Shown here: piece after piece, positions 20,459 through 33,078 of the stretch
Layout of the letters: the number at the start of each line of letters is the position of its first letter
Numbering within the stretch: the first letter of the stretch is position 1
Source of the DNA: Acetobacterium sp.
GTDB taxonomy: Bacteria > Bacillota > Clostridia > Eubacteriales > Eubacteriaceae
Assembly (NCBI GenBank): GCA_028692885.1
Contig: JAQUWM010000025.1
Coordinates: 1-33,078, forward strand
Direction: 5' to 3'
DNA: 33,078 nt
Notes under the pieces: model-generated
Database searches by the model: none
Seen by the model: the letters and a program-made list of their open reading frames with translations, nothing else
Told to the model about the DNA's origin: nothing
Made by a program: the position numbers and the translations under genes

Positions 20459-20929
20459 TTAATTTCCCATTCGTTTTTCCATCGGTGTCGAGATCGTTTC
20501 GATTTTCTCAATGACAGCTGTGATTACTGGTTGATATTTACTGTTGAATCGGCCTTGCCGATCAAAATGACGGATCACCAAATAAGTAATGGCTGTCAGG
20601 CTAATCCCTGTTAAAAATGAGGTCAGCACCTGATCCCATCCTAAACTCAAGACGCCAACCAAATAATATGCGACACAGCTTCCTAAAATAAAGGCAATCA
20701 GCGGTATGCCATACATGATAAATGCTGCCACAAAGACATTGGCAAATTGCATCTCGACCTCCACGGTTTCGCCACATTTAGCATTTACCGGGTTTTTAGC
20801 CGTTGTCAACATAACTGATTGGTCTTTGCTGACATGACAGGCGCCACAATCACCGCAAGCTGAATTTCGTTTGATTTCAACTTCCGCATTATTACCCCGA
20901 AGCGCTTTAACCGTTCCGATTTCTTTCAT
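20459..20929 (-). CDS. RseC/MucC-family (SoxR-reducing system-like) membrane protein
   Basis: Members of this family act with Rnf-type electron transport in reducing SoxR, or modulate sigma-E signalling in proteobacteria. The 156-residue product has a cysteine cluster at the start (C25, C28, C31 in ACGDCGACH) that could hold a metal or iron-sulfur centre. Two membrane helices follow (about 68-90 and 98-119) and then a basic tail. The start overlaps the aspS stop by one base (TAATG). SoxR and sigma-E are not expected in this kind of organism, so the redox role is open. Family assignment is good, function is inference. Confidence 0.85.
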   Translation of the reverse strand: MKEIGTVKALRGNNAEVEIKRNSACGDCGACHVSKDQSVMLTTAKNPVNAKCGETVEVEMQFANVFVAAFIMYGIPLIAFILGSCVAYYLVGVLSLGWDQVLTSFLTGISLTAITYLVIRHFDRQGRFNSKYQPVITAVIEKIETISTPMEKRMGN

Positions 20930-22698
20930 TACAATTCATCCACAGAGATACCCAAATCAATGAGTTGATCGAGACTGGCACTGGCTGGTGCATCCATCAT
21001 CAGACAACCATGATTTTGAGTTTTTGGAAAGGCAATAACGTCACGGATATTATCATTATCAGTAAGCAGCATCACCAGACGATCTAAACCAAATGCCAAT
21101 CCGCCATGAGGAGGCGTTCCATATTTAAGGGCTTCAAGCAGAAAACCAAATTGCTCCCAGGCCGATTCCTGGGTAAAGCCTAACGCTTTAAATACTTTTT
21201 CCTGAATATTCTGGTTGTGGATACGAATGCTTCCACCACCGAGTTCGACGCCATTTACGACCATATCATAAGCGTCTGCCCGGACTTTCAACAGATCGGT
21301 TTCTAGATACTGCAGGTCTTCTTCCAGCGGCATCGTAAAGGGATGATGTTTTGCGGTATATCGGCCCGCTTCCGCATCATACTCTAATAAAGGAAAATCG
21401 GTTACCCATAGAAAATTATATTGGTCTTTTAAATCATATTCCAGTTTACGCGCCAGTTCCAGTCGCAATTGACCCAACGCATTACAAACTATTTCATTGG
21501 TATCAGCAATAATGAAGATCAAATCCCCGGGCTGAGCATCGGTTTTTTCAAAAATTGCTGCTTTTTCTTCTTCTGAGATAAATTTAAGGATTGGTGATTT
21601 CATCTCGTCTTCGGAAACATCGATCCAGGCTAAACCTTTGGCTTTATAAATTTTAGCAAAATTTTCCAGCCCTTTGATGCCTTTTTTGCTCAATTTATCC
21701 TGTGCGCCTTTAGCATTAATGGCACGAACACTTCCGCCTTTTTTGACTGCCCCGGAAAAGACTTTGAATTCGGAGTTTTCGACAATCTCAGATAAGTCAA
21801 TCAATCTTAATCCAAATCGGGTATCCGGTTTGTCTGATCCGTATTGATCCATTGCTTCTTGATAAGTCATTCTCATCATTGGCGTTTGAACCTCTACCCC
21901 TTTAACCTCTTTCATGATTTTTGCAATCATGTCTTCGTTGATGGTAATAATATCGTCTTTGTCAATAAAAGACATTTCCATATCAATTTGGGTAAACTCC
22001 GGCTGGCGATCCTGTCTTAAATCTTCATCTCGGAAGCACTTGGCAATCTGATAGTAACGGTCAACTCCTGAAATCATTAAAATCTGTTTATATAACTGGG
22101 GTGACTGAGGCAATCCAAAGAATTTTCCTTTTTGCACCCGCGATGGTACTAGAAAATCTCGGGCTCCCTCTGGGGTTGGCTTGGCTAACATCGGTGTTTC
22201 AACTTCTAAAAAACCTTTTTCATTAAGAAAATTTCTGGCAATGGCAGCGGTCTGATGCCGGGTTCTCAGAATTTTCTGATATTTTGGTTTTCTCAGATCA
22301 AGATACCGATATTTTAGTCGCACGGCTTCATTGGTCTGATCGTTATCTTCAATATAAATCGGTGGTGTTTCCGACGAATCCAGAATTTTTAGTTCGATGA
22401 TCTCGACTTCGATTTCACCGGTAGGGATATTTTTATTGACATTTTCTGGACTTCGCAAAACAACCTTGCCTTTAACCGATAAGACATATTCATTTCTGAC
22501 CTTTTCAGCAATCTCAAAGGCTTCAGGTCGTTCTTCGTTGACAACCAACTGAATTTTTCCGGAACGGTCTCTTAAATCAATAAAAAGCACCCCGCCAAGG
22601 TTTCGACGATTATCCGCCCAACCAGCCAGTTCTACTACCTGACCAACATCATTTGCTGTTAATTCTCCACACATGGTATTTCTATAATAAGTATTCAT
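20929..22698 (-). CDS. aspS: Aspartyl-tRNA synthetase
   Basis: This class II synthetase charges tRNA-Asp. The 589-residue length and layout are those of the bacterial type: an N-terminal OB-fold anticodon domain (about 1-105), the catalytic core with motif 2 ([14 protein letters not shown]), a GAD insertion domain in the middle, and motif 3 ([13 protein letters not shown]) near the C-terminus. A GGAGG site precedes the ATG. Upstream is a near-consensus promoter. hisS, often its neighbour in Firmicutes, is not in this window. Whether it is discriminating or also charges tRNA-Asn cannot be read with certainty. Confidence 0.97.
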
Positions 22699-22775: not shown

Positions 22776-22830
22776 GTGAGAAAACAGATTGTAAAAATAA
22801 TTTCTATAAACAGCTCGACATTAAAAATAT

Positions 22831-24213
22831 CTAATTTCGTCCATAATCATCGTCAAATCTTACAATGTCATCTTCTTCTAAGTAATTACCTATTTGAACT
22901 TCAATAATCTCTAAAGGTATTTCACCAAAATTCTCCACCCTATGTTTTTGGTTTTGGATTATAAAAACGCTTTCACCTGCATTCACTATCTGCTCTCTCC
23001 CATCTATCGTTATTTTTGCAATTCCCCTTATTATTATCCAATGTTCGCTACGATAATTATGCGATTGATAGCTTATCTTTTTTTCTTTATTAAGTGTTAT
23101 TCTTTTTACTTTAAAAGCACCCTTTTCTTCATCAATAATTTTATAATGACCCCAAGGACGATAATCTTTATTATGATATTTTGCTCTATTATCGTTTCTT
23201 GATTTAAGTATTTCTACAATATTTTTTACTTCTTGTGACTGTTTTTTTTTGCATATCATTAATACGTCACGATTATCAATAACAATATAGTCGTTTAAGC
23301 CAATAGTAGAAATTAATTTATTATCCTCCGAATAAATATAATTATTGCTTGAGTTTATCATAATGTTATCCTTATTTCCAATTATATTGTTGTTTTCATC
23401 TTTCTCAAACAATCCATCGAAAGCATCAAATGTGCCTAAGTCATTCCATCCAACATTTAATGGCACAACTGCAACTTTATCGCTTTTTTCCATAATTCCA
23501 TAATCAATTGAAATGCTTTTTTTAATTTTTCCAAAAGCCTCACCAATATTCTTCGAATTTTCAAATGCCAAATAAATATTATTTTCATAAATCATTACTT
23601 CATTAATAAATATTTTTGAATTAAACATAAAAACACCACTATTCCAAAAAAAACCTAAATTAACATATTTTACAGCAGTATCATAATCAGGTTTTTCTAT
23701 AAATTTCTTCACTTTAAACCCGTTTAATTTTATTGTTCCCGGTTCAATATAACCATACCCGATATTCGGTGAATTTGGTACTATTCCAAAGGTTATTAAC
23801 GAATCATTTGCTAGATCTGTTGATTCTTGTATAATAGAAATGAGTTGTTGTTCTTTCTGGATAATGTGATCTGAGGGAAAAACCACGATAATTTCATCCT
23901 TGTTTTTCGCAATCTGATAAACACCTGCATAAATTGCAGGCAGAGTATTTTTTCCCTCAGGTTCAATAATTATGTTATCTTTATTTATTTTGTAGCCCAA
24001 CTCCTCTATTGAATTTTTTACTAAATACATATATTTTTCATTTGTAGCAATGTAAATATTATTGATCTCAGTAAGTAATAGACTTCTACAATACGTTTCT
24101 TGGAACAATGACCTTCTCTTCTCACTTAAACGAATAAATTGTTTCGGAAATCTATCACGACTCAATGGCCAAAGTCTTGTACCACTACCACCGGCTAAAA
24201 TTATTACTTTCAT
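22831..24213 (-). CDS. manC: Mannose-1-phosphate guanylyltransferase / mannose-6-phosphate isomerase
   Basis: This bifunctional enzyme isomerises fructose-6-P to mannose-6-P and joins mannose-1-P with GTP to give GDP-mannose. The roughly 460-residue product has the nucleotidyltransferase signature LAGGSGTRLWPLSRDRFPKQF at the N-terminus, FPSDH, FIEKPD, and a GWNDLGTF segment. A C-terminal cupin of type II isomerase type (RPWGHYKI ... HRSEHW-like block) follows. The start MKVIILAGG is chosen over an ATG eight codons upstream because GAAGGGA lies ahead of it. It is the last gene of the exopolysaccharide module and implies a mannose-containing product. Confidence 0.93.
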   Translation of the reverse strand: MKVIILAGGSGTRLWPLSRDRFPKQFIRLSEKRRSLFQETYCRSLLLTEINNIYIATNEKYMYLVKNSIEELGYKINKDNIIIEPEGKNTLPAIYAGVYQIAKNKDEIIVVFPSDHIIQKEQQLISIIQESTDLANDSLITFGIVPNSPNIGYGYIEPGTIKLNGFKVKKFIEKPDYDTAVKYVNLGFFWNSGVFMFNSKIFINEVMIYENNIYLAFENSKNIGEAFGKIKKSISIDYGIMEKSDKVAVVPLNVGWNDLGTFDAFDGLFEKDENNNIIGNKDNIMINSSNNYIYSEDNKLISTIGLNDYIVIDNRDVLMICKKKQSQEVKNIVEILKSRNDNRAKYHNKDYRPWGHYKIIDEEKGAFKVKRITLNKEKKISYQSHNYRSEHWIIIRGIAKITIDGREQIVNAGESVFIIQNQKHRVENFGEIPLEIIEVQIGNYLEEDDIVRFDDDYGRN

Positions 24214-24269
24214 CTCAATTAGTCCCTTCGTTATCATTACTTTTGTATGACAACAATCAGTATCTAAAG

Positions 24270-26609
24270 CTATCTTTCAAAATCATCCTCCGAATTCTCC
24301 TCTTTTATAGAATTCTTTTCTATGTTACCTTCAACGTAAGACTCACTTATTGAACTCTTAATTATATCACTTTCTAAATATGAATCATTAATTTCCTCAT
24401 TAGTATTTCCCATATCTTTTGCAGCTTTTTCAAATCGACCTTTTTTCTTTAAAACTTTAAATAAAACAAATATATTTACTATGATTAATAATAATGCGAA
24501 AAACAATAGCCAGATTGGTAAACCTACTGATTTTTCTATAGTATATTTTATTCTTTCCCATGTAAGTGGGACTTTGTTATCTTGAGCAGATAAATTATCA
24601 CCAAATGAATAATTTGTAGCTACTCCATTCTGATTGACTATCGAAATTTGGTCACTTAACCTATTCAACTTATTAGTATCGCTGAGAAATTCAGCAACGT
24701 AAGTCTTTATACTCGGGTCATACATTAAAACATATATTTTTTTATTAAAATCCCAGGGGGATCGCATTACTTGAAAAACTAATTTTTTAGATAGTGTTTC
24801 ATTTGTTACTGCTAAATTTTCTTTTATTATAAACCCATCATCTAGTGGCAGTATCCCTAATCTTGCACCCACCTCGTCTGGTAGCCAAAGATCATTAAAA
24901 GACCCAAAGAAAATCATATTGCCCTTTTTTGCATCCTCGGTTAATCCATCCGATTCTGGGCAAACAATAAAATCAGAGGTTACTCCATTTACCTGACCAA
25001 TTTTTGTCGACAAAATATTCATTATATTTAGTGTATCTGCATCATAATCTGTAGGCATTCCTACGGTTATACTATTGTTTTCTGCTGTTATACCAAAATA
25101 TGGAAAACTAGTTAAAGTTGGATAAACGCCTGTATCACTGGGTTCTAAGTATATTTCAGACTGTTTTTCAATTACTGTCCATGCCGTATCGGAGAAATCC
25201 TTTGAACAATCAATTTTCCCAAGATAATTATAAACCTCAACTCTAACCTCTATTGTCTCACTTTCACGGATCTCCTCAGGAATTTTTACCTTTAAACTAC
25301 CTCCATCAGCATTTGAGTTAGAAAGTTTTTCACTTCCAGCCGGAACATTATTTAAATAAACAGTGATAAGCGAATTGTCTGAAAGCAAAGCTTCTGAGTG
25401 ATGATATCTGAGATTTATATAAGAATCATCGCCACTTTCTATACCTCCAGGCTGCTTAAAAATAAAAGTAGCCTTTTGATGAAATGCTCCTGCCAAGTTT
25501 ACATCATCATATTTAAAATCAGAAAAATTGTAATAACCTGTTTCATTCGAGTTAATGTCAATTGCGCTATTTTCAGATACAACCGATGAAACTTTTAATT
25601 GTGCTTCATTAATTTGTTCCAAATACGAAACATTTGAAAAGAAATTTATTGCTTTATCAAGACCAATTTCATCCTTACCAGAAATTAGTGCATTGCCATT
25701 CTGTACCGAAAGAAAGCCTTCCTCCGAATTCAATAAATCTGGAAGTAAAAGGATTGAGGAGTTAGTGAAGTTATCAACAGTCCCTATAAACAACTTATTT
25801 TTTAAAGAAGGCTCCGAAGCTTCTCTAAATGATACTTTATTACTTATCAAGTTTTTATTTCTATTAAAAGCTCCTATTGATGACGAAACTTTAAGCATCC
25901 CTTGCAGAACAGTTTTATCTGGATTCTGTGGCAATACATATTCATTTTGAATCCTATATTTGTCATTAAAGCTATTGTAGAAGAAAGAATACAAATTACC
26001 TAGATAAGGTGTTCCAAATTGAACTATTCCTATTCGAAAATATGAGTCAGGATCGAATCTCACCCAGTTGCTAGGATTATCGATATCAGCACAATCACCT
26101 TCAATAGATCTTTGAGCTGTTGTTATTGACATCTCATTTAATTCACCAATTTTCATTACTTCTGAAGGAATAATCACCTTCCACCAAGATTGATTATTAT
26201 CAGTAATTTCATGAATCCACTTCGTTTCGAGTGTTGTTCCATTCACTGCAAGTGTAATGCTCGAACGATCATTTATAAGCGTGTTAGAAACTGTCATGTC
26301 TAAATTTAAATAGTTCTCACCTCCAATAACTGTACCTTCAGGAATCGAAAACCAAAATGAAGCCGTATTTTTAGGCAAGTCTAATTGCACACTTTCTTGA
26401 AAAAGTTGAATATCGACATATTTACTATTACTCTCCAGTACTTCGTTGATAGATTTTTCTTCAACTACATTGCTTTTTTCAAAACCATCCTCCTCTTCCG
26501 CATAAACATTAAACGTAAATACATCAAATAAACAAAGTAAGCTAAATACAAATAAAAAATGTAATAAAACAAACTTAACAAGAGCTTTCTTTTCCATATG
26601 TTTCACCAA
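24270..26609 (-). CDS. BcsB-like exported subunit of an exopolysaccharide synthase
   Basis: BcsB-type proteins sit outside the membrane, anchored by a C-terminal helix, and guide the polymer leaving the synthase. The 779-residue product has a signal peptide (about 5-37, ending near VYAEE) and a large extracytoplasmic region with the jelly-roll and flavodoxin-like repeats of the family (for example FWFSIPEGTVIGG, SITTAQRSIEGDCADIDNPSNWV). One membrane helix (LPIWLLFFALLLIIVNIFVLF) lies near 694-716. A charged, acidic cytoplasmic tail of about 60 residues is added after it, which typical BcsB lacks. The start is uncertain: TTG (26609) sits eight bases after AAGGAG, with GTG and ATG close by. 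It overlaps the upstream gene. Confidence 0.85.
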   Translation of the reverse strand: MVKHMEKKALVKFVLLHFLFVFSLLCLFDVFTFNVYAEEEDGFEKSNVVEEKSINEVLESNSKYVDIQLFQESVQLDLPKNTASFWFSIPEGTVIGGENYLNLDMTVSNTLINDRSSITLAVNGTTLETKWIHEITDNNQSWWKVIIPSEVMKIGELNEMSITTAQRSIEGDCADIDNPSNWVRFDPDSYFRIGIVQFGTPYLGNLYSFFYNSFNDKYRIQNEYVLPQNPDKTVLQGMLKVSSSIGAFNRNKNLISNKVSFREASEPSLKNKLFIGTVDNFTNSSILLLPDLLNSEEGFLSVQNGNALISGKDEIGLDKAINFFSNVSYLEQINEAQLKVSSVVSENSAIDINSNETGYYNFSDFKYDDVNLAGAFHQKATFIFKQPGGIESGDDSYINLRYHHSEALLSDNSLITVYLNNVPAGSEKLSNSNADGGSLKVKIPEEIRESETIEVRVEVYNYLGKIDCSKDFSDTAWTVIEKQSEIYLEPSDTGVYPTLTSFPYFGITAENNSITVGMPTDYDADTLNIMNILSTKIGQVNGVTSDFIVCPESDGLTEDAKKGNMIFFGSFNDLWLPDEVGARLGILPLDDGFIIKENLAVTNETLSKKLVFQVMRSPWDFNKKIYVLMYDPSIKTYVAEFLSDTNKLNRLSDQISIVNQNGVATNYSFGDNLSAQDNKVPLTWERIKYTIEKSVGLPIWLLFFALLLIIVNIFVLFKVLKKKGRFEKAAKDMGNTNEEINDSYLESDIIKSSISESYVEGNIEKNSIKEENSEDDFER

Positions 26610-27424
26610 TTGAAGTTCTCCTTGCTATTTTTAAATTTTTGAATTTCATTGCTCATTTTTTCTAGCGTCCACGTCTCAACTTTTATATTCTTATTTTTTG
26701 TCATTCTCGGCATCAGATTAAACAATTGTTTTATATATTGCAATGTCACCACGTAAGAAAGTTTTGATTCACCATCATTTCTCTGATCAAACACATATGG
26801 GATCTGAACAATTTTTGAATAGACGCTCACCGCCATAATTTCAACACAAATCTTCCATCCGATAGGGTTCAAAGCACTTTTATTTATGATACTCCGTTTT
26901 ATCATAAATATTCCACTTGTTACATCAGACACATGTCTAAGGTTATATATTGCTATCTTTCCAAGTTGTCTTGCTACAAATGAAACAAATTTTCTCCAAA
27001 AATCAAGTCCTCCATCACCACCACCGGGAATAAATCGGCTAGGTATACACACGTCTGCATTGTTCATCATAGCACAATACATAGGTAGTAAAATCTCCGG
27101 TGGGTGCTGCATGTCAGCATCCATAACCGCAAATATATCGCCACTAGCAATTTCAAAACCTCTTACTACAGCTGTTGCTAAGCCCTTTTTATTTTCTCTA
27201 TGTTCTAATTCTATCTTGACTGTACATTTTTCAGCTGCCTTTCTTATTACCATTGGTGTTTCATCAACACTATCGTCCACAAAAATTACTTCATAAGCAA
27301 CTCCAATTAAAGTTTTCTGTATTTTTTCTAATAGAAGGTTAATATTACCAGCTTCATTGTAAACTGGCACGATAATTGACAAGGTTATATTTGCATTTTT
27401 ACCCACCTTTGTTTGAACCTCCAA
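26603..27424 (-). CDS. DPM1-like polyprenyl-phosphate glycosyltransferase (GT2)
   Basis: Such enzymes move a sugar, often mannose from GDP-mannose, onto a polyprenyl phosphate on the inner membrane face. The 273-residue product is one GT2 domain with VPVYNEAGN at 20-28, FVDDSVDET at 49-57 and the metal-binding DAD at 102-104 in MDADMQHPPE. A DVTSGIFMI segment and the QRNDGESKLS motif of the family are also seen. No membrane helices follow, so it is the soluble or peripheral type. GDP-mannose from the manC product in the same module is a likely donor, an inference from context. Confidence 0.88.
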   Translation of the reverse strand: MEVQTKVGKNANITLSIIVPVYNEAGNINLLLEKIQKTLIGVAYEVIFVDDSVDETPMVIRKAAEKCTVKIELEHRENKKGLATAVVRGFEIASGDIFAVMDADMQHPPEILLPMYCAMMNNADVCIPSRFIPGGGDGGLDFWRKFVSFVARQLGKIAIYNLRHVSDVTSGIFMIKRSIINKSALNPIGWKICVEIMAVSVYSKIVQIPYVFDQRNDGESKLSYVVTLQYIKQLFNLMPRMTKNKNIKVETWTLEKMSNEIQKFKNSKENFNW

Positions 27425-27439
27425 TTCATAATTATCACT

Positions 27440-29665
27440 TTATTCAAAAGCAACGTTGTCTTCTTTTACCGAATCCAATCCATGATGAGTTTTTTCCCAA
27501 TAAAACGGATTTTTCACTAATTGAAAAAGCGCTTTATAAGCCGCAATACTCATTAATATCCAATAAACAGGTGTAAATAAAGCATATTTTATAATTGAGT
27601 AGGAAAATTCTTGTCTTCTTTTTAAAACGCAATCTCGAATTACAGAATACATTCCAATAATATTCGTATATGTAAACATAAAATTACCGACCAGAAATAG
27701 TATTACTGCGCTATAATAAAAGGCTCCTGGAAATAAATTCTGTATCCACCCTGCTTTAGTAAATATCCACATTATCATTAAAAACCAAAATACTGGATTG
27801 ATCAATGGTAAGAGTGGCGTGCCAAGAACCATTGCTTGATAACCAACAAAACCTTTTAGTCCAAGTTCTTTAAATAATTTAAGCGGATGTCGCATGTGAA
27901 CAAGCCATGTTTGCATGTACCCTTTAATCCATCTGGAACGTTGTCTTATCCAGTTTCCAATGTCAGAATTTGCTTCTTCCCAGGTTCGCGAATCCAAAAC
28001 AACAGTTTTATAACGGAACTTGAAGAGTCTTACACCTAAATCTGCATCTTCAGTTACATTAAAAGGATCCCATCCCCCAACCTCTTTAAGAAAATTTATT
28101 TTAAAATGATTGGATGTTCCACCGAGGGGTATAGGTACATTCAATTGCATAATACCTACCAATAAATTTTCAAACCACATGCTATATTCTTGCGTGAATA
28201 ATCGTGTTAATACATTTTGTGTACTGTTAAAATAATTAAGCTTTGCTTGCACACAAACATATTCTTCTGGCAGTGATTTAAACGAAAGATAAACTTTTTT
28301 CAGTTGATCTTTTTCTGGCCGATCCTCTGCATCAAAAATAACAACATAATCGCCTTTAGCTTGAAGCAGACCGTAGTTACATGCTTTTGGTTTTGTCTGG
28401 GGTTTAGAACTTGGCACAATTAAAACGCTAAAGTAATTTTTTAAATTCATACCACGTATGACTTCAATTGTTTCTTTGTCATCCTCTTCTAGAAGAATTT
28501 TTACATCTAATTTATACTGTGGATAATCTAGTTCACTAATATTTCTAATCAACTGTGCCACCACTTCTTTTTCTTTGTATACTGGGATTAATATTGTATA
28601 AATTGGTAATTCTTTTTCATCAATAGCTGTTAGTTCTTCATCACTGAATTTTAGTTGCACATTGTTTTTTTCCCCGAGTATTACAATATATAGTTTAAGT
28701 ACTGTCATAATTGCATAAATAGCTTGAAAAAGTAAATTAACTACTATCAGTGTATTCGACCAATTAAGCATCATACATATTACTAGTAAAACAACCAAAC
28801 AAATAATACTAGTAAGTTGACCTGTGCTAAAAGTGACTATTGCAGAATTTCCCGGTTGCGAGTCATAGAGATCAAATATACTTTTGTGTTTCTCAATATT
28901 CTTAAATCGTGCCTCCCAATACTCTTTCATTTCCTCATCAGTTACAAGAACTTCTTCTACGGGTTTACCAAGAATAACTTCAATTTCATTAATAACCGAA
29001 GGCTTTAAACGATCATTTACTGCGAGAATAAAACAATCTTCTCTTTCGGAAATGACAATCGCACTATATTTTTTTGCAAGCTGATATGGCAGATTTTTTG
29101 TTTTCCAGTAATCTGATTCTACTCCCGGTCTACCGATTTCAAACTGTATTGATAATTCTCGATATAGAGTTTCCTGATCAACATAACCCAAAAATACTAA
29201 AATATCTCCTATTTTCCCCCCCGATTTATTTTGCATATCAATTGCTTCGTCCATTTGAGCTTGACTTATTATACTTTTCTCTACGAGAACCTCCCCAATT
29301 TTCCCTTTTCTGTTTATACTGTTTTTTAGCACTTTCTCAATTTGCTCGTTTGTTACAAAACCCATGCTAATACAAATATTGCCAAATCGACCGCCATATT
29401 TCTTCTGAAAATCTATCACTAATTCCAGTTGTTCTCTCGTTATTAACTTTTTCTCTAATAACAACTCACCTAACTTCGTAAATTTATTTTCAAATATAAA
29501 ATTAGATAAATCACTTGAAGTTATATAACCATACTGAACTAGAACATCTCCAATTAACCCACCTTTTTCATTTTGGATTCTAATTGCCTCTACAAGATTC
29601 TCCTCAGTAAGATAACCTGCTTTAATTAATCTATCTCCAAGTCTTTCTTCCACTACTCTCACCAC
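27440..29665 (-). CDS. BcsA/NfrB-like GT2 synthase with three N-terminal MshEN-like repeats
   Basis: This is a processive-type membrane GT2 enzyme. The core shows DAED at 445-448, TED at 538-540 and QRSRW at 575-579, the signature of cellulose- and hyaluronan-type synthases. Hydrophobic helices lie at about 280-330 and after residue 605. The N-terminus (about 8-168) holds three copies of a pattern LG-x-x-L ... ITxEQL ... AIxxQ ... GGxIGDxLVxxGYI, matching the MshEN fold that binds c-di-GMP in MshE and NfrB. A T2SSE_N-like segment follows (about 169-255). There is no C-terminal PilZ domain. The first start is GTG directly after the previous stop; GTG at 29653 has a better-placed AGGTGG. NfrB carries MshEN at the other end, so this layout is distinctive. 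Confidence 0.88.
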   Translation of the reverse strand: MVRVVEERLGDRLIKAGYLTEENLVEAIRIQNEKGGLIGDVLVQYGYITSSDLSNFIFENKFTKLGELLLEKKLITREQLELVIDFQKKYGGRFGNICISMGFVTNEQIEKVLKNSINRKGKIGEVLVEKSIISQAQMDEAIDMQNKSGGKIGDILVFLGYVDQETLYRELSIQFEIGRPGVESDYWKTKNLPYQLAKKYSAIVISEREDCFILAVNDRLKPSVINEIEVILGKPVEEVLVTDEEMKEYWEARFKNIEKHKSIFDLYDSQPGNSAIVTFSTGQLTSIICLVVLLVICMMLNWSNTLIVVNLLFQAIYAIMTVLKLYIVILGEKNNVQLKFSDEELTAIDEKELPIYTILIPVYKEKEVVAQLIRNISELDYPQYKLDVKILLEEDDKETIEVIRGMNLKNYFSVLIVPSSKPQTKPKACNYGLLQAKGDYVVIFDAEDRPEKDQLKKVYLSFKSLPEEYVCVQAKLNYFNSTQNVLTRLFTQEYSMWFENLLVGIMQLNVPIPLGGTSNHFKINFLKEVGGWDPFNVTEDADLGVRLFKFRYKTVVLDSRTWEEANSDIGNWIRQRSRWIKGYMQTWLVHMRHPLKLFKELGLKGFVGYQAMVLGTPLLPLINPVFWFLMIMWIFTKAGWIQNLFPGAFYYSAVILFLVGNFMFTYTNIIGMYSVIRDCVLKRRQEFSYSIIKYALFTPVYWILMSIAAYKALFQLVKNPFYWEKTHHGLDSVKEDNVAFE

Positions 29666-32353
29666 CTAATTAATTACACGAAATAATTTAAATCCATCAA
29701 ATTTCATTTCTTCCACGCACCATTCAGTTCCATTTTCATACAAATTTCTGTATCTAGAATTAATAGCATCTAGTGCACCAACACCACTTGGATCTGGTAC
29801 AATTAAATAGTCAATACCATGGTGTAAAGGATCTTCAACTGAATCATAAAAATTGGGACTACTGCTTATAACTAAGTTATCAATGTTTTCCGTATTTAAA
29901 ACAACGCCACTCAAAGTAAATGCATCCATAAGTATTTTTTTATCTGGTATTTTAGTATTTAAATAATCTGCTACAGTATAGGACTCTTTATTTACACTCC
30001 CTTCAAAAGATCCTATTTCTTCTTTGGCCAACTCTTTATTATTAGCAAAAACATTCATATACATAAATGAAGAAATTATCAGACTACACACAATTACTAG
30101 CTTCGCAAGTTTTAAATTTTTAGATGAGCAAATTGAAATTTCATATGGAATCCAAGCAATACAAATCGGTAAACTATATGAGAAAAAGCGCAGCCATCCA
30201 TAGGAATCACCTTTTAAAAGCATTATATAATGAAATGCTAACATAGCTATAACAAAAGTACTCAAAGAAATAAAATCAAAATTATGAAATCTCTTCTCTT
30301 TTATACGAATTAATACAATCGCGAAATACAAGGGTAAAAAAAGTATTGCCCGTTCCATTACATATAGAACAATCTCAAAATATGTTCCATTAACAGTTGC
30401 AAATGTACTCTGTGATACATTTGAATAGACAGAGTTTAAAAAGTAAAACGGATTGCCAGTAATCACAAAATTAAACAATATCCAAAGAAAAACGGTGTAA
30501 CCCATAGGTAAGAAAACTAAAATTAATGTTCCCTCTATATAATAGAATCGCTCATTTTTATTTTTCAACAAAACATATTTCTTTTCTTCAGGATTTAACA
30601 ATATATTGAGAATGACGCAAATAGCAATGGCTATAGCAAAAGGAATTGCTTCATATCGGGTTAAAAACAATCCCGCCAAGGCAAATCCAAGATGTATCAT
30701 GTACTTACTCGTTCCAAACTTTATCCATTGTGTTATACTGCATACACTGTAAATCATAAAAAAATATGAAATAGTTTCACTCATCCCGTTAGCACCATAG
30801 AAAAATATAAATGGGTTCAATGTATATAACAGGGTTACCAATAACGCATAGCCATTTGGCACCTTAAATTTATGAAACGTTTTTAAAATCATGCCGGCTG
30901 AAAGTGCCGCAAAAAAAGCCGTTGTAATTGTTCCAGAAATTCCTTTTGAAGCGATCGGCCTCCAGAATTCAGCTAAATACATAAATGGAATCTGGACGGT
31001 GCTTGGCAACGGATTCCAGACAAGACCAATAGATGCGTATCTCTGCGGTTTTATAAAAACAACATAAAAAGCATTTGCTGTTCGACTATATGCATCACCA
31101 AATAAAACTCCCATTCCATACCCTAAATATATTCCATAGGCGGCCTCGAGTAAAAAAACAATTCCAATAATAAGCCAAAAGAACTTCTTATTGTGATTTC
31201 CATTTATGATTCTTAGTGAAGATTTTACGCTTTCCCGACTTTTTGAGTTGAATTTTAGGCTACTCTGTTTTTTTTGGGAATTCTTATTTATTACTTCGAT
31301 TCTATCTTGATAAGAAAGATCTTTTTTTTTCTGTTGACCGAATCTAGTCGTAATGCTACCAGCAATTCTATTTCCCTTGTTGTTGATTTCGTCGCTTTTT
31401 GCATCAATTGCATCAATTGCATTAACACCTATTTTTATTGAAGACAAAACGTTATTACTCTTATAGTCTTTATTTATATTCTTTACATCTTGATTAAATT
31501 TAGTAATTCGAACCGATTTGTTCTCTCTATGACTATTATTGGCATTAATTTCGTCAGCTGTTTTTTTATCGTTCATCCATTCTAGCTGTTCCGTCAGCAT
31601 GCAGCAAAGTTGATGGAATTCAAGATCTTCAACTCTTCTTTCACTAATCTGTTCAAGAAAAGTATTTGCTTCATTACATATTTGCTGTAGACTTATTTTA
31701 ATATTGTCACTTTTCAAGTGGTTTATTGTTAGAATATAGTCTTCCGTACTCAAATAGTGCAAAAAAATATTCGAGACAAATGTTTCATCTATATTATAAA
31801 TGCGTTTTACTAGATCAGACATACAATTATGAATCACTTCAAGTTGCGATATCAATCTACAGTTTAGGGCAATATTTACACTTTTTCCCCGATACAAATC
31901 GGGTTGAATGCTCAAAAATTCAACCAATGCCATGTCCATGGATTCCATTTCTTCAAAAAGTAAATCTCTTCCTGTTTTGATACTATAAGCATAAACCTTT
32001 TTCCGGCACTGACTTAAAGTCTGTTCATTAAACGATTGTTTATTGAGATTCGTCAACTGAAGGGCATATTGGAAGCGAGAGTCACTAATCAAAAACTTCA
32101 ATAACTCATCATCCGTTAAATTAAACACTTCCTTTAAAATCAATGCACCAACAACTGAACTGATCGGAATATTTGTATCTGAATCCTGCCCGTCCTTAAA
32201 TAAAACTGCAAAACGGTGTTCATTAATTGATGATAAAATGATCTCAAAAAAACGTTTATCCCATGATCCCAACATAGATTCCAGAGATCGACCATAGTTT
32301 TTTAAAATATAATTATCTAAATCTAGTTGATTCAATTTATTTGTCAAAGACAT
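29666..32353 (-). CDS. Fusion of transposase N-terminal region to GT-C membrane glycosyltransferase
   Basis: One unbroken frame of 895 residues has three parts. Residues 1 to about 260 closely resemble the N-terminal half of IS1182/DUF772-type transposases: DNYILKNYG, SSVVGALILKEVFNLTDDELL, DSRFQYALQLT, FNEQTLSQCRKK. Where such transposases carry RMDS with the first catalytic Asp, this one reads GKSV, and the DDE core is absent. Residues 261-388 are a hydrophilic, Asn/Lys/Ser-rich linker without methionine. From about 390 there are many membrane helices, with a first-loop motif FGDAYSRTANAFY and LVWNPLP like PMT/GT39-type enzymes that use lipid-linked sugars. GAGGAAG lies nine bases before the ATG. 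The job of the N-terminal part is unknown. Confidence 0.82.
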   Translation of the reverse strand: MSLTNKLNQLDLDNYILKNYGRSLESMLGSWDKRFFEIILSSINEHRFAVLFKDGQDSDTNIPISSVVGALILKEVFNLTDDELLKFLISDSRFQYALQLTNLNKQSFNEQTLSQCRKKVYAYSIKTGRDLLFEEMESMDMALVEFLSIQPDLYRGKSVNIALNCRLISQLEVIHNCMSDLVKRIYNIDETFVSNIFLHYLSTEDYILTINHLKSDNIKISLQQICNEANTFLEQISERRVEDLEFHQLCCMLTEQLEWMNDKKTADEINANNSHRENKSVRITKFNQDVKNINKDYKSNNVLSSIKIGVNAIDAIDAKSDEINNKGNRIAGSITTRFGQQKKKDLSYQDRIEVINKNSQKKQSSLKFNSKSRESVKSSLRIINGNHNKKFFWLIIGIVFLLEAAYGIYLGYGMGVLFGDAYSRTANAFYVVFIKPQRYASIGLVWNPLPSTVQIPFMYLAEFWRPIASKGISGTITTAFFAALSAGMILKTFHKFKVPNGYALLVTLLYTLNPFIFFYGANGMSETISYFFMIYSVCSITQWIKFGTSKYMIHLGFALAGLFLTRYEAIPFAIAIAICVILNILLNPEEKKYVLLKNKNERFYYIEGTLILVFLPMGYTVFLWILFNFVITGNPFYFLNSVYSNVSQSTFATVNGTYFEIVLYVMERAILFLPLYFAIVLIRIKEKRFHNFDFISLSTFVIAMLAFHYIMLLKGDSYGWLRFFSYSLPICIAWIPYEISICSSKNLKLAKLVIVCSLIISSFMYMNVFANNKELAKEEIGSFEGSVNKESYTVADYLNTKIPDKKILMDAFTLSGVVLNTENIDNLVISSSPNFYDSVEDPLHHGIDYLIVPDPSGVGALDAINSRYRNLYENGTEWCVEEMKFDGFKLFRVIN

Positions 32354-32646
32354 CGCTTATTACTTCCTCATGATATAATATAAATATTAAACTGTTTTGA
32401 ATATACTTAATACTCCTAGTTGCTTCGTTATTCATGAAATTAACAATATTCTTCATACCGATATTCGAAAAACTCAAAAATCCAGTCAGAATTTTCAACT
32501 TGCTCTGATATCTAACCAAGTAAAACAGAACATTCTTTCGATCAAGATGTGTTTTAGACCATTACTTACCTGACGTTTATACTTTCTGATTAAAACAATT
32601 GGTATAACAACATCCAACTTCAGTTAATACTGGTATATTTTTCCCA
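32354..32646 (-). other. Leader segment before the glycosyltransferase fusion gene
   Basis: About 290 AT-rich bases lie between the structured RNA element and the start codon of the fusion gene. Short frames here (one overlaps the gene start) have no ribosome site or recognisable product. A TATATT/TATTAT-like box near 32365-32385 is too degenerate to call. Nothing else was recognised. Confidence 0.5.
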
Positions 32647-32820
32647 ATCCTGAAATCCGGCATTTTTATATCCAGGTACTGAAAGCCATGGAATAAGCGG
32701 GTTTCAGAAATCACGCATAGATGTAAAATTTATCTATGCTCGCATGGCCTATAAGCTACATCTGCCTATTAATGGAGGTTTCGGCGCATCATAGATATAA
32801 TTTTCCAGGATTTCAGGATC
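32647..32820 (-). ncRNA. Candidate structured RNA of unknown class
   Basis: About 174 bases fold into nested helices on the minus strand. The closing stem is a perfect 12 bp (32808-32819 with 32647-32658). It is followed by a 7-bp helix (32794-32800 with 32666-32672), a 6-bp helix GCCATG/CATGGC (32685-32690 with 32743-32748) and an 8-bp hairpin (32715-32722 with 32732-32739, 9-base loop). Unpaired, GC-richer blocks such as CGCCGAAACCTCC and AATAGGCAG look conserved. A minus-strand TATACT box ends four bases before the element, placing its transcript start at the closing stem. It matches no class I can name with certainty; raiA-type RNA is one candidate from size and general look. No T-run follows. 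Confidence 0.6.
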
Positions 32821-32823
32821 CAT

Positions 32824-32829
32824 AGTATA
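32824..32829 (-). promoter_or_regulatory. -10 box of the structured RNA
   Basis: TATACT on the minus strand lies the right distance upstream of the 12-bp closing stem to start transcription at 32818-32820. No clear -35 hexamer is seen 16-18 bases further up (ACTTTT at best). Confidence 0.5.
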
Positions 32830-32956
32830 TTGGAAATCAACTCACTAAAAGTTCTCGAATTTTAGGCAATCCACTTGTCGACTATTTATTTTCCTAATTA
32901 GTCAGGTGATAGATCTTCTTTCAGACTATAAACCTCACCTACTTTTGCCTCGCAAA

Positions 32957-32986
32957 TCAAAAAAAGCTACCAAAAACTGGTAGCTT
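32957..32986 (-). terminator. Rho-independent terminator overlapping the riboswitch
   Basis: A 9-bp perfect stem (minus strand AAGCTACCA, 32986-32978, pairing with TGGTAGCTT, 32972-32964) with a 5-base loop is followed by seven T (32965-32959). Its first arm is shared with the last helix of the c-di-GMP riboswitch, so the two structures compete. Confidence 0.9.
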
Positions 32987-33062
32987 GACTATCATAGCAA
33001 ATTTCATGCCTTAGATTCGATGCTTTGCGTCTTTAACTTTCGCTAAATTTGCCATTTCATAT
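32979..33062 (-). promoter_or_regulatory. Cyclic di-GMP-I (GEMM) riboswitch
   Basis: Reading the minus strand, the GEMM-I landmarks appear in order: GGCAAA (33053-33048), a short stem TTTAGC/GTTAAA capped by a GAAA tetraloop (33041-33038), the near-invariant GACGCAAAGC (33031-33022), CTAAGG (33014-33009) and the 3' helix ATGATAG-TCAAG-CTACC. These correspond to GGCAAAC..GAAA..GGGACGCAAAGCC..CCTAA..GGTAGC..TTACC of the Vibrio Vc2 aptamer. A TATAGA box at 33071-33066 may be the -10; the -35 would lie outside the window. The 3' strand of the last helix is also the first arm of the terminator, so binding of c-di-GMP should oppose termination (predicted ON switch). It points to the exopolysaccharide genes. 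Confidence 0.88.
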
Positions 33063-33078
33063 CATTCTATATTGAGAT

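Follow-up and report, generated by a model that had tools for sequence, protein, structure and literature searches.

The analysed window is a 33,078-nt stretch of Acetobacterium sp. (assembly GCA_028692885.1, contig JAQUWM010000025.1). Its right-hand part carries a c-di-GMP-I riboswitch, a 600-nt leader, one fused gene and further exopolysaccharide genes, which lie next to aspS (Table 1). The fused gene is the first of an exopolysaccharide cassette with the order GT-C, MshEN-GT2, GT2, BcsB and ManC. The contig belongs to the genus: its AspRS is 97% identical to those of two genus members (G001 and G002), and a contaminant contig was rejected on this ground.

Table 1. Positions of the features in the window, all read on the reverse strand.
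Feature	Position	Strand	Basis
aspS, core gene of the genus, flanking the cassette	20929..22698	-	
ManC-type mannose-1-P guanylyltransferase/isomerase	22831..24237	-	
BcsB-like protein	24270..26609	-	
GT2 glycosyltransferase	26603..27424	-	
MshEN (c-di-GMP-binding motif) + GT2 glycosyltransferase	27440..29665	-	
Fused gene, 895 codons: transposase N-terminus, polar linker and GT-C glycosyltransferase	29666..32353	-	
Residues 385–895, intact GT-C glycosyltransferase	29666..31201	-	
Residues 263–384, A-rich polar linker without stop	31202..31567	-	
Residues 1–262, from IS1182-like transposase N-terminus	31568..32353	-	
Codon 157 (Lys), aligned with the Asp of the RMDS motif in transposases	31883..31885	-	alignments
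DUF772 match (PF05598), residues 62–121, above gathering score	31991..32170	-	
Ribosome-binding site GAGGAAG ahead of ATG1	32363..32369	-	
Imperfect hairpin of 173 nt in the leader	32647..32819	-	
Relic of group IIC-type intron 5′ end, directly after the terminator	32865..32956	-	
Intrinsic terminator, 5′ arm overlapping the aptamer 3′ end	32964..32986	-	
c-di-GMP-I riboswitch aptamer (RF01051, 72.5 bits)	32976..33063	-	

The open reading frame of the fused gene is free of stops over its whole length. When codons 1–384 were shuffled with dinucleotides kept, the shuffles contained 29 stops on average and none of the 2000 was open. Codon usage is coding-like in all three parts of the gene, and not so in the leader. 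The linker is 122 residues in length; it is in frame with both the transposase and GT-C halves, and it is polar in nature, since it has 29 hydrophobic residues where its dinucleotide shuffles have 36.8 ± 3.6. One 9-nt tandem repeat (31399–31422, 2.7 copies) encodes IDAIDA within the linker. We also considered whether the linker is a frameshifted transposase core and rejected it: when six transposases were compared by tblastn with 29001–33078 in six frames, no match of their later parts had an E-value below 0.13.

Whole transposases from other genomes align with the fused protein from about residue 2 to residue 262 and not beyond (tblastn); the similarity stops ahead of the DDE_Tnp_1 region. 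The DUF772 score of the fused protein, 27.6 bits against the Pfam cut-off of 23.1, is at the low end of the range of five relatives (27.2, 31.6, 37.4, 40.1 and 45.9 bits). In the alignments, Lys157 stands where the RMDS motif of the transposases has Asp, which we take to be the first residue of the DDE triad. With this Asp replaced and the remaining DDE core missing, the N-terminus is, as judged from its sequence, catalytically dead and should be unable to transpose. Among 38 positions invariant in the relatives, 20 are kept and 18 are changed, whereas the other sequences, left out one by one, keep 62–100% (L006 being the lowest); the distant transposases L132 and L009 were aligned but uncounted, and only columns holding at least five letters entered the count. 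The loss is similar for hydrophobic and polar invariants (8/15 and 12/23 kept, respectively). Of the transposases found, the nearest shares 43% identity with the fused N-terminus.

With the full-length query, matches to the transposase half were found in 8/101 relatives, own genome included, and the other seven end by residue 258; in the class, 16/391 genomes matched, again including the own genome. Twelve matching loci were read, and by length and alignment all of them are IS-type transposases, whole or broken; further matches are known from match-table rows alone. The broken ones are L124 (frame change), L004 and L006 (stop) and L007 (fragment). The intact relatives L005, L125, L126 and L127 contain DUF772, DDE_Tnp_1 and DDE_Tnp_1_6; for the three tested, the best NCBIfam match was the IS1182 model, with scores of 129–144 bits that are below the cut-off of 270. 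Against NF033551 (cut-off 270), the fused protein scored 11.5 bits. Like these IS1182-like transposases, the fused protein possesses the N-terminal ~260 residues with DUF772 and its own start codon. Different from them, it has Lys for the first catalytic Asp, lacks the rest of the DDE core and is joined to a membrane enzyme, and no inverted repeats were found at its gene. The ends of the related elements were defined from six copies in G305 and from other elements; at the borders of the fused gene, their consensus repeats matched no better than shuffles, and the best matches of the G305 repeats had 5–6 mismatches of 17 and were scattered. IS1182 ends around the gene, which the preliminary description had suggested looking for, were therefore not found above chance. 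One recent, intact IS insertion was rejected, owing to the missing IS ends, the replaced catalytic Asp and the 43% identity of the nearest relative.

Residues 385–895 are of GT-C fold. The Pfam PMT_2 match at residues 459–583 scored 21.8 bits, below the cut-off of 26.1. Compared with 79 relatives (from the best 80 of 216 confirmed relatives), the GT-C part keeps 22/22 fully conserved columns and 38/38 columns conserved to at least 95%; the count is confined to columns filled in at least 80% of rows. In the fragment that begins at residue 385, five sequences share one invariant acidic residue near the first loop (GDAxSRTANA), the D at position 36; presumably, it has a catalytic role in GT-C. 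The GT-Cs of Bacillota exopolysaccharide operons (L044, 53%; L045, L046, L047 and L048 of Desulforamulus) share the conserved GT-C core, and GT-C, MshEN-GT2 and BcsB follow in this order on one strand in 6/9 orthologous loci read. However, these relatives have no N-terminal transposase part; the ten GT-C ORFs listed are 509–555 aa in length and begin at about residues 357–384 of the fused protein. Among 101 relatives the GT-C was found in the own genome only (E 0.01), and in 391 class genomes it had three more matches, all of them weak (E 1.5e-4 to 0.004). Two neighbouring GT-C gene copies are present in G586 (L041, 9338–10930 and 11446–13038). In Paenibacillus sp. RC67 (L098, around 6001), one GT-C frame runs for 865 codons from stop to stop and is extended at its C-terminus; possibly, it is another fusion.

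Of the four starts tested, only ATG1 of the transposase has a good ribosome site. The duplex energy at its GAGGAAG is −7.0 kcal/mol, compared to 0.4, −3.5 and −2.4 kcal/mol at in-frame starts 252, 260 and 303, respectively. These three are the only in-frame ATG, GTG or TTG codons between residues 226 and 413; the next, 414, lies inside the membrane part. No in-frame start codon exists between residues 304 and 413, where the GT-C genes of the relatives begin; one ATG lies near those gene starts, out of frame. We infer that ATG1 is used as the start.

Separate analysis of the two halves, as advised in the preliminary description, identified one IS1182-like transposase for residues 1–262 and one GT-C for residues 385–895. 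Its account of the gene, an IS1182/DUF772-type N-terminus of ~260 residues without DDE core, fused in frame to one complete GT-C through one polar linker and preceded by one good ribosome site, is borne out by the DUF772 match, the end of similarity at residue 262, the stop-free 895 codons, the polar residues 263–384, the 38/38 conserved columns and the GAGGAAG sequence.

In the sets searched, the fusion was seen in the own genome only. This is 1/40 genomes of the family and 1/7 of the phylum genomes having this GT-C (398 searched), and the fusion was absent from the 79 GT-C loci (best 80 of 216 relatives); the recurrence in other genomes that the preliminary description had advised looking for was not found in any of these sets. 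Upstream of the GT-C, L122 has one frame running off its contig and L082 has one of 145 codons; neither matches the fused N-terminus at E 0.01. One fusion family spread over many genomes was rejected. The preliminary description had held that uniqueness to one assembly together with IS ends at the borders would speak against its reading; the former was observed, whereas the latter was not.

To place the cassette, we read the stretch upstream of aspS in 16/18 other genomes of the genus (G015 and G018 left out) and in G022. The gene hemZ, named by NCBIfam, is absent from the stretch fetched for G002 and G010, and both genes are in view in 14/16. In 10/14 genomes the hemZ and aspS matches are 116–288 bp apart, and in 4/14 there is one insert between them. 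The G001 insert encodes BcsA-like GT2-PilZ, MBOAT, GH5 and CotH, and the G007 and G011 inserts encode UDP-glucose dehydrogenase, polysaccharide deacetylase and chitin-synthase-like GT2; all three have one homologous riboswitch. The G004 insert has other cargo and no riboswitch match, and G022, of the same family and another genus, has ~7 kb between hemZ and aspS, also with no riboswitch match. Side by side, L156, L157 and L162, and apparently also 22788–33078 of the window, present different polysaccharide cassettes behind one homologous c-di-GMP-I riboswitch in the hemZ-aspS gap. In the window, DNA identity to the genus on the aspS side ends at ~22782–22788. The window ends at 33078, and hemZ is beyond view on this contig; apparently, the own cassette occupies the hemZ-aspS gap, as in the three related genomes. 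At E 1e-30, MshEN-GT2 was found in the own genome only among 61. Since GT-C and MshEN-GT2 are found, among the relatives searched, in the own genome only, and the relatives have other cassettes at the locus, the cassette is, on these sequence comparisons, most likely one horizontal arrival behind the resident riboswitch. As described in the excerpt of PMC8669469 considered here, the MshEN of the E. coli polysaccharide synthase NfrB is C-terminal; here it is N-terminal and accompanied by BcsB and GT-C partners.

The riboswitch scored 72.5 bits with the Rfam covariance model RF01051, against the cut-off of 35. Because the terminator overlaps the aptamer 3′ end, the arrangement suggests one ON switch. 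No c-di-GMP-I match was found at orthologous GT-C operons in the loci searched (three, and eight), therefore the riboswitch would not be part of the incoming operon. One of the eight loci, in Clostridium algifaecis (L046, 4695–4777), has one related operon behind one c-di-GMP-II riboswitch (54.6 bits, cut-off 53.5). The intron relic scored 75, compared to the shuffle maximum of 30. One such relic also follows the riboswitch of G001 (L156, 2604–2665; score 44, shuffle maximum 30), and none was found after the riboswitches of G007 and G011. Eight copies of the intron 5′ end occur elsewhere in the genus (L143–L148, L150 and L151); RF02001 is next in four, and all eight, by eye, stand directly after one hairpin and T-run. 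Group IIC introns prefer sites after intrinsic terminators, as stated in the portion of PMC4424553 consulted. No match to the group IIC catalytic domains (RF02001) was found in the leader of the window. The leader hairpin has 26-nt arms and a z of −3.36. The 600-nt leader thus has the look of debris from mobile elements, which agrees with the origin proposed for the fusion.

The transposase/GT-C chimera is real and unusual, and it has one good historical explanation. In our opinion it is fairly probable that the junction of one cassette swap fell in one transposase relic, and that the incoming gene received one borrowed start. The hemZ-aspS gap of the genus would hold exchangeable exopolysaccharide cassettes behind one common c-di-GMP-I riboswitch. 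One IS1182-like transposase would have lain downstream of the riboswitch and the group IIC intron relic, and the incoming cassette (GT-C, MshEN-GT2, GT2, BcsB and ManC) would have been joined, directly or via one later deletion, to its 5′ 262 codons. Having lost its own start, the GT-C would be read from the transposase start and ribosome site through the polar linker. c-di-GMP would then act twice, on the riboswitch, putatively turning the operon ON, and on the MshEN of the next enzyme. The order of events, the use of ATG1, the ON logic and the passenger role of the N-terminus are our deductions. Several observations count against this explanation: hemZ is beyond the contig view, no intron relic follows the riboswitch at 2/3 of the other riboswitch loci, and residues 31–150 are slightly better kept than one passenger predicts. 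No IS ends were found that would show the insertion itself, and either the swap or the fusion may have been the earlier event. Between the two readings of the preliminary description, replacement of the 5′ end of the gene through one IS insertion fits best; its recency does not hold, considering the absence of IS ends, the 43% identity of the nearest transposase, the replaced catalytic Asp and the 18/38 changed invariants.

The other reading was that the DUF772 fold (residues 31–150) is domesticated, kept as one DNA- or protein-binding module and tethered through the linker to the membrane glycosyltransferase. We consider it possible, but unlikely. The frame has been kept in the transposase part: in simulated neutral decay, 1.4% of 260-codon frames were open at 20% amino-acid change and 0/1500 at each of 30, 40 and 47%. 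The maintained N-terminal frame would be accounted for by the requirement that the GT-C be translated. The DUF772 score within the range of the relatives and the polar linker are in favor of domestication, and so is the retention of conserved positions, 28/45 in residues 31–150 (L005 40/58, L127 41/51, L124 44/49 and L128 20/27) against 11/24 in residues 151–262 (L005 22/31, L127 21/31, L124 19/23 and L128 23/25). Residues 31–150 are nearly as well kept as in the intact L005, and other relatives keep more; the retention suggests one level a little above the pure-passenger prediction, although the numbers are small. In the full-length AF2 model, block pLDDT is 74–89 in residues 31–150 except for two blocks (58 and 67), and it is mostly below 50 in residues 152–350. 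When the N-terminus was modelled alone, this contrast was gone (50–87 for residues 31–150 and 62–88 for residues 161–262), and the AF2 alignments include transposases, which favour the transposase fold; no convincing solved structural relative of the N-terminus model was found. The equal loss of hydrophobic and polar invariants, and the presence of the fusion in one single genome among those searched, also argue against domestication. That DUF772 is kept as one folded cytoplasmic module that binds DNA or recruits one partner such as the MshEN-GT2 synthase, while tethered to the membrane GT-C, seems rather doubtful to us. The cytoplasmic N-terminus is probably one tolerated, catalytically dead extension, retained because it is the source of the start.

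It is improbable that one false join or small indel in the sequence or assembly makes two frames look like one. The fusion comes from one single assembly of 202 contigs, which is 87% complete with 4.65% contamination, and the out-of-frame ATG near the starts of the relatives could hint at two separate frames; this hint is weak, as such ATG are common in AT-rich DNA. On the other hand, a search of the own genome, 87% complete as assembled, gave no second copy of either half that could drive one misjoin; the linker has coding character and shares its frame with both halves, and riboswitch, leader and gene are co-oriented. Even less credible is translation that begins within the linker or shortly ahead of it (ATG252, ATG260 or TTG303), with the transposase part as one untranslated leader: in-frame starts are present there, but their ribosome sites are weak compared to that of ATG1, and the 262 codons are still open, with coding-like usage, despite the lost transposase constraint.

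Vertebrates have host-transposase fusion genes, in which the transposase part was captured in frame by one host gene. The fusion reported here has this capture in common with them; it differs in being bacterial, of DUF772 type, with one membrane glycosyltransferase as partner, in one single genome and with one putative function. If domestication were true, it would represent bacterial transposase capture in one c-di-GMP-controlled exopolysaccharide operon. Under the cassette swap that we prefer, the hemZ-aspS gap is one c-di-GMP-riboswitch slot that holds different polysaccharide cassettes in related species, and the fused gene suggests that, when one operon is swapped behind one resident riboswitch, its first gene can end up with one start borrowed from mobile-element debris. 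Such a borrowed start is one plausible first step to a new domain combination.
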